Shown here one piece after another: positions 41,611-45,590 of a stretch of DNA of 64,000 bases (its first letter is position 1; each line of letters starts with the position of its first letter). The stretch spans positions 143,486 to 207,485 of the forward strand of contig JADQBG010000003.1 in assembly GCA_016278725.1 (NCBI GenBank), read 5' to 3'. The position numbers and the translations under genes are program-made. This DNA comes from Actinomycetota bacterium. GTDB lineage: Bacteria; Actinomycetota; Thermoleophilia; RBG-16-64-13. The notes beneath the pieces are model-generated. The model ran no database searches, was not told the origin of the DNA, and saw only the letters and a list, made by a program, of their open reading frames with translations.

Positions 41611-41649
41611 CGAGGCGGGGGAGCCAGCTCCCCCGCCTCGTCTTTTTTT
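41611..41649 (+). terminator. Rho-independent terminator after rpsI
   Basis: Perfect 14-bp stem CGAGGCGGGGGAGC/GCTCCCCCGCCTCG with a CA apical dinucleotide (loop opens to at least four bases), followed by TCTTTTTTT. It closes the rplM-rpsI unit. Confidence 0.95.
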
Positions 41650-41686
41650 GTCCTTGGGTCACTCATCGCAGGCCCGGCGGAGGAGT

Positions 41687-42703
41687 ATGTTGCCCGAACT
41701 GGTGATCAGGCCGGATGCGATCCGGGAGAATGCCGAGGCGGTCTGCGCTCTGCTCGCCCGTCCCAGGCTGCGGGGCGAGCAGAGCGCGGCTCCCCGTTTG
41801 ATCGGCGTGACCAAAGCCTGTCTGGGCGACCCCACGGTGGCCAGGGCGATGCTCGAAGGGGGCGCGGCCGCGCTGGCCGATACCCGGGAGCCCAGCCTAG
41901 CCCGCCTGCGGGCGGCGCTGCCCGAGGTCGAACTGCACCGCATTCATCTCACCGCCGGCGGCGCGCACCGGGAGTGGGCAGACGTACTTTACGTTTCCTC
42001 GCCCGCCGGGCTTCGTGGGCCCGAGGGCCGGGGCGGTCGGGCCGAGGTGATGATCCTGGTCGAAACCGGGGATCAGCGCGAAGGCGCGCCTCTCGAACAG
42101 CTCCACGGCCTCGCCCGGGAGGTGGCCACCGGGCCGGGTACCCGCCTTCGCGGCATCGCCACCAACTTTGCCTGTTTTGCCGGGAGACCGGAAAGTGTGC
42201 GGGAATCGGTGGAGATGCTGGCCGCGGCGGCTCGGGGCCTGGAGCGGGACGGCGTGGCCGTGCCCGAAGTCTCGGGCGGCAACTCCAGCCTTCTCGGATT
42301 GCTGATGGACGGAGTCGGTCTGCCCCCGGAGGTGACGGAGATCCGTTGCGGGGAGGCGCTTTTGCTTGGACAGGAGACCCTGGGCTTTCGCGCCCTTCCC
42401 GGGGGGCGGCAGGACGGATGCCGGCTGCGGGCCGAGGTGCTCGAGCGCTATACTAAAGCGTTCTCCGAGCCGGACCGCCCACGGCTGGTGCTGGGTTTGG
42501 GGAGTCAGGACCTGGGCAATGCCCCGGTCCGTTTCTTGAACCCGGAAGTCAGCGAGGTCGGACGTTCGAGCGATTATCTCGTTGCGGAGGTGGCCGGGGG
42601 AGCTCAGGCTCCCGAGATCGGAGCGACGGTGGAGATGATTCCCTCCTACCACGCGCTGGTTGCGGCGTGGACCTCACCTTTTGTGGACGTGCGCTTTGAG
42701 TAG
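41687..42703 (+). CDS. PLP-dependent amino acid racemase-like protein (alanine racemase N-terminal fold, COG3457/ornithine racemase type)
   Basis: 338-residue protein resembling the PLP-barrel of fold-type III racemases. The likely PLP lysine is in 'GVTKACLGDP'. Further family marks are 'VSGGNSSLLGLLMDG' and 'EIRCGEALLLGQETLG', characteristic of the predicted amino acid racemase/ornithine racemase group. It lacks the C-terminal domain of true alanine racemase, so Alr function is unlikely; the substrate is unknown. GGCGGAGGAG precedes ATG closely; a TTG one codon later has better spacing. First gene after the rpsI terminator, overlapping glmM by eight bases. Confidence 0.75.
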   Translation: MLPELVIRPDAIRENAEAVCALLARPRLRGEQSAAPRLIGVTKACLGDPTVARAMLEGGAAALADTREPSLARLRAALPEVELHRIHLTAGGAHREWADVLYVSSPAGLRGPEGRGGRAEVMILVETGDQREGAPLEQLHGLAREVATGPGTRLRGIATNFACFAGRPESVRESVEMLAAAARGLERDGVAVPEVSGGNSSLLGLLMDGVGLPPEVTEIRCGEALLLGQETLGFRALPGGRQDGCRLRAEVLERYTKAFSEPDRPRLVLGLGSQDLGNAPVRFLNPEVSEVGRSSDYLVAEVAGGAQAPEIGATVEMIPSYHALVAAWTSPFVDVRFE

Positions 42704-43637
42704 GCGCTGGTTTGGGACAGACGGGATCCGTGGGGTCGCGAACGTGACCCTGACCCCCGAGTTGGCCATGAGGCTGGCCCGGGCTGCCTCTCGGGTGCTG
42801 AAAGAGGCCGGTGGCGCGCGCATCCTCATCGGGCGAGACCCCCGGGCTTCGGGGCTCATGTTGGAAGCCGCGGTCGCCGCGGGCATCGCCGCGGAGGGAG
42901 GGACCGCCTATCTGGCGGGGATCATCCCCACCCCGGGGGTTTCCCGGCTGGCGGCGGCAGGCGGGTACGACGGGGGAATCGCCATCTCGGCCTCACACAA
43001 TCCCTATAAGGACAACGGGCTGAAGGTGTTCGGTCCGGACGGCAAGAGCCTGAGCGAGCCCCAGGAGGCGCGGATCGAGGCGGTCATGGCCGAGCTGGAG
43101 GAAGCGGCGGCTGCGCCCGCGGGTGCCACCGCCGGCCCCGACCCCGACCCTGCCGCCGGCCTCGGCGATCCCCCCATCGGCGAAATCGTCCACGTCGAGG
43201 AGTCCTCCGCCCGTTACGTCGACGGCCTGCTGGAGCAGGTCCAGGCGGACCTGAGGGGTCTACGCATCCTTCTCGACTGTGCGAACGGAGCCACCTACCG
43301 CGTGGCTCCGGTGGCCTTTCGGGCGGCCGGGGCCTACGTCGAAGTCCTCTGCGACCGGCCCGACGGCCGCAATATCAACGAAGGCTGTGGCTCCACCCAT
43401 CTCGAGCTGCTGAGCGGCCGCATGGAACAGGGAACTTTCGACCTGGGCCTCGCCTTCGACGGCGACGGGGGCCGAGTACTGGCGGTGGATACCCGGGGCC
43501 GCGAGGTCAGCGGGGAACGCATCTATCGGGAAGCGGGACTGACGGGCGACGGGATGCAGAACGGCCTGCTCCTGGCGGAGATGCTCAAGCGGTCCCCCTC
43601 CGCTCTGGCCGAACCGGTCGGCGGGATGGAGGAGTAA
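42696..43637 (+). pseudogene. glmM: phosphoglucosamine mutase GlmM, internally deleted and C-terminally truncated
   Basis: Starts from TTG (LSRRWFGTDGIRGVANVTL) and has the catalytic phosphoserine loop 'AISASHNPYKDNGLKVF' (Ser100), so it is clearly GlmM, which converts GlcN-6-P to GlcN-1-P. It is only 313 residues against about 445. The metal-binding loop reads DGDGGR instead of DGDADR. Just after 'VLAVDTRGREV' the sequence jumps to what aligns with a much later part of the family ('SGERIYREAGLTGDGMQNGLLLAEMLKRS', equivalent to SGHIIF...TTGDG). It stops before the C-terminal phosphate-binding domain 4. No remnant of the missing part is seen before glmS. Either a real deletion or an assembly error; as written the enzyme should be inactive. 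Confidence 0.8.
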
Positions 43638-43701
43638 GGAATCGGTGGTTCGAGTAATGGTAGAAGCTAGAAGCACCCACGCGCGAGCGCTGTGGGGAAG
43701 T

Positions 43702-43717
43702 GGCCAATCGGTTGGCC
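43702..43717 (+). other. hairpin in glmM-glmS gap
   Basis: GGCCAA-TCGG-TTGGCC stem-loop inside the 120-base gap before glmS, enclosed by complementary GCGCT and AGCGC segments about 30 bases apart on either side. It does not match the glmS ribozyme core. Possible leader structure of glmS. Confidence 0.35.
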
Positions 43718-43757
43718 GATACGGCAAAGAGCGCGCTGGTCTAGGGAAGGAAGCGGA

Positions 43758-45590
43758 ATGTGCGGCATAGTCGGCTACGCGGGGGATCGTCCCTGTAGAG
43801 ATATCCTGTTCAGAGGGCTGCGGAAGCTCGAGTACCGCGGTTACGATTCGGCGGGCATATCCGTGATCACCGAGGGGCAGTTCGACCTGCTCCACTCGGT
43901 GGGGAATCTGGACCGGCTCGAAGAGATCCTCAACCAGATGCCCAATCAGAGCCACCTGGGCATCGCCCACACCCGCTGGGCGACCCATGGCAGGCCCTCC
44001 AACGAAAACGCCCATCCTCATCTCGACTGCACGGGCCGTTTCGCCATCGTCTTGAACGGGATCGTGGAGAATTACCTGGCGCTGCGCGAGCAATTGCAGG
44101 GGGAAGGACACGAATTCACCTCCGAGACGGACGCGGAGGTGGTGGCGCATCTGATCGAGCGCGCCTTCCGGGGGGATCTGCGCGAAGCCGCGGCGGAGGC
44201 CTTCCGGCAGATGGAGGGGCACTTCACCTACGTGGCGATCACCACCGAGGACCCCGAAACCATGGTGGCGGTGCGCAAGGAGACCCCGTTGGTCATAGGC
44301 CTGGGCGAGAAGGAGAACTTTCTGGCCTCGGCCGTGACCGCCTTCCTCTCCGAGACGCGCACGGTGATCTTCCCCGACGACGCCGAGTTGGTCACGGTCA
44401 CCCGGGACTCGGTCGTCATCACGGATCTCGATGGCAATGTGATCGAGCGCCAAGCGGAGGAGGTCGACTGGGACGAGGACGCCGCCGAGAAGGGCGGCTA
44501 CGAAACCTTCATGCTCAAAGAGATCAACGAGCAGCCGACCGCGCTCGCCGACACGCTGGCCGAACGGGTGACCCACGAAGGCCGGGTGGAGCTCGAGGGG
44601 CTCGGCCTGGAGGACGGCGACATCCGACGTCTGCGCCAGGTGATCATCGTCGCCTGCGGCACCTCCCACCACGCCGGCCTGGTGGGCAAGTACGCGCTCG
44701 AGAAGTGGGCCCGCCTGCCGGTGGAAATCGACGTGGCCTCCGAGTTCCGCTACCGTGATCCGGTGATCGGCCCGGATACCCTGACGATTGCCATCACGCA
44801 ATCGGGTGAGACCGCCGATACCCTGGCCGCCATGCGCTTGGCTCGGCAGGCCGGGTCCAAGGTGCTCGCCATCACCAACATCGTCGGCTCCCAGGCGACC
44901 CGCGAGGCCGACGGGGTGCTTTTCACCCGGGCCGGCCTGGAGATCGGGGTGGCCGCCACCAAGACCTTCGAGGCGCAGGTGCTCGCCGTGATCCTGCTTG
45001 CACTCTACCTCGCTGAGGTCCGCGGCCACCTGGCCGACGAGTACGTCAAGCAGCTGACCGAGGAGATCCGGCGGGTGCCCACCATGCTGAACGGTTACCT
45101 GGAGGATGGCCGGCTGGCCCAGATCGAGGCGGTGGCCACGCGCTATGCCAAAGAGCGCTTCTTCCTCTATCTGGGCCGGAATATCGGCCTCCCGGTTTGC
45201 ATGGAGGGCGCGCTCAAACTGAAAGAGATCTCGTACATCCCCTCCGAGTCCTACGCCGCGGGAGAGATGAAGCACGGGCCCATCGCCCTGCTCGACGAGG
45301 GTTCGCCGGTGGTGGTGGTCGCCACCGACGGGCACACCTACGAGAAGCTGATCTCCAACATCCAGGAAGTGAAAGCGCGGGGGGCCCATGTCATCGCCGT
45401 GGCTTCCGAGGGCAATAAGGCGATCGCCGACATGGCCGACGAGGTCTTCTACGTGCCCAAGACCGACGAGGTGCTGTCGCCCCTGCTGGCCACCGTCCCG
45501 CTGCAGCTCTTCGCCTACTACGTGGCAACGGCCAACGGGGAGAGCGTCGATCAGCCGCGTAATCTGGCCAAAACGGTCACCGTGGAGTGA
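43758..45590 (+). CDS. glmS: glutamine--fructose-6-phosphate aminotransferase (isomerizing)
   Basis: Makes glucosamine-6-phosphate, the first step of UDP-GlcNAc synthesis. The 610-residue protein begins MCGIVGYAGDR, so Cys2 becomes the N-terminal nucleophile of the glutaminase domain; the longer track start would bury it and is rejected. Two SIS domains follow ('CGTSHHAGLVGKYALEKWARLPVEIDVASEFRY', 'SQSGETADT'-like ITQSGETADTLAAM) and the C-terminal 'QPRNLAKTVTVE' is canonical. GGGAAGGAAG precedes the ATG. The stop overlaps acpS by four bases. Confidence 0.97.
   Translation: MCGIVGYAGDRPCRDILFRGLRKLEYRGYDSAGISVITEGQFDLLHSVGNLDRLEEILNQMPNQSHLGIAHTRWATHGRPSNENAHPHLDCTGRFAIVLNGIVENYLALREQLQGEGHEFTSETDAEVVAHLIERAFRGDLREAAAEAFRQMEGHFTYVAITTEDPETMVAVRKETPLVIGLGEKENFLASAVTAFLSETRTVIFPDDAELVTVTRDSVVITDLDGNVIERQAEEVDWDEDAAEKGGYETFMLKEINEQPTALADTLAERVTHEGRVELEGLGLEDGDIRRLRQVIIVACGTSHHAGLVGKYALEKWARLPVEIDVASEFRYRDPVIGPDTLTIAITQSGETADTLAAMRLARQAGSKVLAITNIVGSQATREADGVLFTRAGLEIGVAATKTFEAQVLAVILLALYLAEVRGHLADEYVKQLTEEIRRVPTMLNGYLEDGRLAQIEAVATRYAKERFFLYLGRNIGLPVCMEGALKLKEISYIPSESYAAGEMKHGPIALLDEGSPVVVVATDGHTYEKLISNIQEVKARGAHVIAVASEGNKAIADMADEVFYVPKTDEVLSPLLATVPLQLFAYYVATANGESVDQPRNLAKTVTVE

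Follow-up and report, generated by a model that had tools for sequence, protein, structure and literature searches.

Displacement of the native glmM gene and persistence of a truncated copy beside glmS in an Actinomycetota genus

The glmM gene is essential for the cell wall (peptidoglycan). The copy present in the window (the whole stretch of 64,000 nucleotides of DNA analyzed here) encodes little more than the front half of the protein, raising the questions of how GlmM is provided in this organism and of why the remaining half of the gene persists. This copy, referred to below as the stump, is located in an rplM-rpsI-racemase-glmM-glmS-acpS-nnrD cluster. The features of the locus are listed below, G000 designating the genome of the window (2.73 Mb, 99.65% complete) and G001 one further genome of the same genus (contig JAGXFV010000025.1, isolate LH_M23).

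41648..42703, + strand: alanine/ornithine-racemase-like gene, the stop of which overlaps the start of the stump
42696..43637, + strand: native glmM stump, 313 aa, with domains 1 and 2 complete, the Ser loop ISASHNP, and a domain-3 leftover
43455..43475, + strand: metal-binding loop, DGDGGR versus DGDGDR (third Asp replaced by Gly); G001 has DGDGDR
43500..43530, + strand: junction of an in-frame domain-3 deletion, minus 70 codons versus full-length homologues and minus 147 bp versus G001
43639..43744, + strand: out-of-frame relic of the end of domain 4, with ~48 codons deleted 5' of the relic
43758..45590, + strand: glmS, intact

Structure of the stump and its surroundings

The original prediction of an internally deleted glmM devoid of domain 4 was confirmed. 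The match of the stump to the TIGR01455 glmM profile is confined to profile positions 1-259 of 442, and its score of 273.6 bits is below the cut-off of 447.55 for a full-length GlmM. A Pfam search of the stump revealed domains I and II only, with a sub-threshold 15.7-bit piece of domain III and no domain IV in the frame. As described from the sequence, the start, the Ser loop, and domain 2 are retained, the sequence goes from RGREVSGER straight to IYREAGLTGDGM..., and the C-terminal end is GGMEE. The start codon is TTG and overlaps the stop of the upstream racemase gene. The active-site serine loop (SASHNP) is present, S100 and H101 being invariant across the alignment. The metal loop, predicted to be lacking, is altered rather than absent, since it is still present as DGDGGR in place of the DGDxDR motif. 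Neither the domain-3 sugar loop GGEQSGH nor the domain-4 phosphate-binding loop RPSGTEP was found in the stump, the latter being taken out by the domain-4 deletion. Downstream from the stop, the relic of domain 4 reads ESVVRVMVEA...APTRERCGEVANRLADTAKSALV, with 7 bp more than in G001. It gave no match to Pfam domain IV, and a domain IV search of the window's genome revealed no separate gene for this domain.

AlphaFold2 modeled domains 1 and 2 of the stump with confidence (mean pLDDT of 83), the deletion junction scoring <50. The model matches solved GlmM structures, residues 4-277 (domains 1 and 2) aligning with PDB entries 7ojr, 3pdk, and 6gyz. The stump therefore resembles members of the GlmM family (TIGR01455) by its alignable domains 1 and 2 and its Ser loop but differs from them by the loss of domain 4, of most of domain 3, and of the third Asp of the metal loop, with a score far under the family cut-off. 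Judging from its sequence, the stump should be catalytically dead, as the phosphate-binding domain 4 and the sugar loop of domain 3 are missing and the metal loop is broken.

As predicted, glmS is intact downstream from the stump; a search for an RNA element 5' of this gene gave no Rfam match. Among the NCBIfam models, the racemase-like gene is closer to that of ornithine racemase (Orr), with a score of 112 bits far below the cut-off of 480, than to that of alanine racemase, and it is missing at the corresponding place in two other genomes (G009 and G087). The interval between rpsI and the racemase-like gene contains a strong intrinsic-terminator-like hairpin (41611-41640) with a 13-pair stem and a T-rich tail, which suggests that the racemase-glmM-glmS part forms a transcription unit of its own. 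In one other member of the family (G006), glmS appears as two overlapping frames (L160 4216-6044) split near residue 540, probably as a result of a sequencing frameshift.

A second GlmM and displacement of the native gene in the family

The organism does not lack GlmM, since a full-length GlmM is encoded by another contig (C7) of the window's genome. This 448-aa protein scored 581.2 bits against TIGR01455 (cut-off of 447.55) over profile positions 1-441, and it contains the four Pfam domains I-IV and the DGDGDR loop. Immediately upstream of its gene is another that resembles the C-terminal half of GlmU. This complete second GlmM fits the suggestion that the deletion is compensated by another phosphohexomutase; ManB or Pgm is unnecessary as a compensating enzyme, since a true full-length GlmM exists. 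In the window's genome, domain IV of the superfamily was detected only in the C7 GlmM and in a ManB-like enzyme. Further proteins of the phosphohexomutase type in this genome include the ManB-like protein (C19) and a nucleotidyltransferase-PGM fusion of ~860 aa (C24). The latter (L004 520-3102, minus strand) combines a nucleotidyltransferase containing left-handed-helix repeats with a phosphohexomutase-like part in which the serine and metal loops seem to be missing, and similar frames are present in most genomes of the family.

The distribution of the two GlmM types was surveyed in 18 genomes of the family, one of which (G014) was too incomplete for a call. Four genomes (G004, G013, G012, and G006) have only the native glmM, intact between the racemase gene and glmS. 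Eight genomes (G002, G005, G007, G008, G010, G011, G015, and G016) have only the new type, and there the racemase gene abuts glmS with a gap of 22-85 bp and nothing between. Both types were found in G000 and G001, the old copy being crippled. The new type is also present in G003 and G017, the glmS locus of which was not found, and the glmS locus of G009 contains neither the racemase gene nor the native glmM. Among the matches listed for 249 genomes of the class, those sharing 51% identity or more with the new type came only from this family and from G019, a member of another family in which the new GlmM is present and the native gene is missing next to glmS. Its genus-mate G087 keeps the native gene there, and this pair (L246 and L247) represents a second apparent glmM displacement, within a single genus of that other family.

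In a maximum-likelihood tree, the two stumps grouped with the native GlmM of the family (support of 100/100). The new type formed a separate clade (99/88), apart from the GlmM of the class and joined to a Thermodesulfobacteriota sequence (100/96), in a tree that sampled few phyla and in which the donor clade is poorly represented. The new GlmM was probably acquired horizontally, because it does not group with the GlmM of the class itself. In a species tree based on operon proteins, the genomes with only the native gene fell into one clade (98/95). Together, gene content, synteny, and phylogeny establish the displacement of the native glmM. The new copy has a foreign position in the tree, and the old copy is lost alongside it or inactivated, as judged for the latter from the sequence of the stump. 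This is a case of xenologous (non-orthologous) displacement of an essential gene, a known kind of event, in which a foreign homologue is present and the resident gene is lost in relatives and crippled here. It differs from the usual picture in that it was caught midway with an unusually clear intermediate, a truncated old copy preserved in the operon with domains 1 and 2 under purifying selection.

Order of the losses and selection on the stump

G001 has the same gene cluster, and its glmM ends at the corresponding place and is followed by the same out-of-frame domain-4 relic. The breakpoint of the domain-4 deletion is identical in the two genomes, indicating that this loss predates the split of the genus. 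A recent exchange of the deletion between G000 and G001 is not supported, since the flanking DNA (~91% identity) is no more similar than other non-coding DNA here. The G001 stump is longer (354 aa), retains the DGDGDR metal loop, and is short of only 21 residues in domain 3; this 21-residue loss may be common to both genomes or a separate event. Two changes, the 147-bp deletion in domain 3 and the D259G substitution, were found in the window's genome only and are known from one assembly. The deletion had been proposed to be recent, which applies to these two genome-specific changes and not to the older loss of domain 4. The three indels within the stump frame (24, 63, and 147 bp) are all multiples of three.

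All of the divergence between the G000 and G001 stumps postdates their common domain-4 loss. The pairwise codon model, which is biased (omega of ~0.5-0.7 under neutrality) so that its raw p-values were not accepted as they stand, gave an omega of 0.137 for domains 1 and 2 (p = 3e-17) and of 0.08 for domain 2. The same model gave an omega of 0.66 for the domain-3 leftover, which is not distinguishable from 1 and looks neutral. Neutral simulations that took the real sequence as their starting point and used four mutation schemes led to mean omega values of 0.49-0.68 and never to values <0.29, all 400 simulations being above the observed 0.137. The third-position share was 0.59 versus never >0.50 in the neutral simulations. 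Limiting the analysis to G and C sites, as a control, reduced the selection signal without abolishing it (p = 0.001). Neither frame contains a stop (~10% per lineage in simulation). The NG86 value of the stump was 0.318, those of glmS and the new GlmM being 0.095 and 0.085, respectively, indicating that the constraint on the stump is relaxed but real.

The protein encoded by the window copy has evolved ~3-fold faster according to tree branch lengths, with 23 derived residues on its branch versus 7 on that of G001, and the decay of this copy may be more advanced. In a branch model, an omega of 1 was not rejected for G000 alone because synonymous sites of the outgroups are saturated, and selection is not securely assignable to the window's lineage because the comparison involves only two genomes of the genus. 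Purifying selection on domains 1 and 2 after the loss of domain 4 thus indicates that the stump was still made and kept in at least one lineage, and the safest reading is that this was probably so in both.

Origin and possible roles of the stump

We consider it very likely that the native glmM was displaced by a horizontally acquired GlmM and that a truncated, dead remnant persists, probably as a non-catalytic protein. The process would have begun with the horizontal arrival of a second full-length GlmM in a Thermoleophilia-like lineage, where it displaced the native glmM. Once the native gene was freed of its essential role, a frameshifting deletion would have removed the core of its domain 4 ahead of the divergence of the genus. 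Parts of domain 3 would have been lost next, while the remnant would have been translated, with domains 1 and 2 conserved, for much of the subsequent time. Since its function can be supplied by a complete foreign copy, the old glmM was able to shrink to its front half.

The selection data bear on whether the stump might instead be a plain pseudogene, i.e., a displaced and functionless glmM that is decaying and whose open frame has survived by chance. Two successive truncations, the loss of the metal loop, the near-neutral domain-3 leftover, the faster protein evolution of the window copy, and the complete loss of the native gene elsewhere in the family are consistent with decay, but the omega of domains 1 and 2 is under that of all neutral simulations, both frames are free of stops, and every in-frame indel is a multiple of three; we regard this explanation as rather unlikely. 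It is more doubtful still that the stump is kept as a translated spacer avoiding polarity between the racemase gene and glmS, domains 1 and 2 being conserved for harmless folding. The overlap of its start with the upstream stop, the proximity of glmS, and a constraint that affects the two domains predicted to fold and spares the leftover tail would suit a spacer, whereas the racemase gene abuts glmS in other members of the family, so that no spacer is needed, and the omega of domain 2 is low if only the fold had to be maintained.

The retention of domains 1 and 2 also recalls Bacillus subtilis, in which GlmM remains able to bind and inhibit the cyclase CdaA via domain 2 after removal of domain 4 (PMC8573169). 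A non-catalytic role is thus shown to be possible for a GlmM devoid of this domain. The window offers a natural case of the domain-4 loss engineered in GlmM-F369 (PMC8573169), with domains 1 and 2 kept, except that the stump has also lost most of domain 3 and that the organism appears to have DisA rather than CdaA. Regulation of a c-di-AMP cyclase by the stump, as by the GlmM of B. subtilis and Staphylococcus aureus, is highly improbable here, since each genome of the family has one DAC protein above the cut-off, mostly of 361-380 aa, and that of the window's genome follows a radA-like frame, has a DisA-like tail, and looks like DisA, the second DAC match in this genome being sub-threshold. 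The CdaA precedent is therefore without its partner in this organism, and the partner of the stump, if any, is another protein. Finally, an assembly or binning artefact, as envisaged in the original prediction, is scarcely credible. The 147-bp deletion and D259G do come from a single assembly, but the deletion is in frame and inside a long contig, and an independent assembly from the same genus has the same domain-4 deletion and gene order. For the domain-4 loss, the shared breakpoint in the alignment with G001 refutes an artefact.

Returning to displacement with a retained remnant, we cautiously favor the view that the stump probably persists as a non-catalytic dimerization or binding protein. 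Purifying selection on domains 1 and 2 provides indirect support for the moonlighting remnant that had been proposed, for which no partner was identified. The B. subtilis GlmM dimer forms through domain 1 (PMC8573169). Pairing of the stump with the new GlmM via domain 1 is possible, but most genomes that have the new GlmM do without a stump, and any role of the stump would be specific to the genus for this reason. More tentatively, the stump could be a natural pseudoenzyme, in which domains 1 and 2 of GlmM became a dedicated non-catalytic protein after catalysis moved to the foreign GlmM. A literature search on truncated GlmM found nothing relevant.

The replacement of an essential peptidoglycan gene can be followed here in its before, during, and after states within one bacterial family. 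For annotation, the locus serves as a warning that the glmM found in the canonical operon is not necessarily the one that works. The persisting constraint on domains 1 and 2 is the part worth following. If the pseudoenzyme reading is true, a regulatory or scaffolding role of GlmM would have been separated from its enzymatic role, and a functional stump would offer a natural tool to find the non-catalytic job of GlmM outside the Firmicutes.
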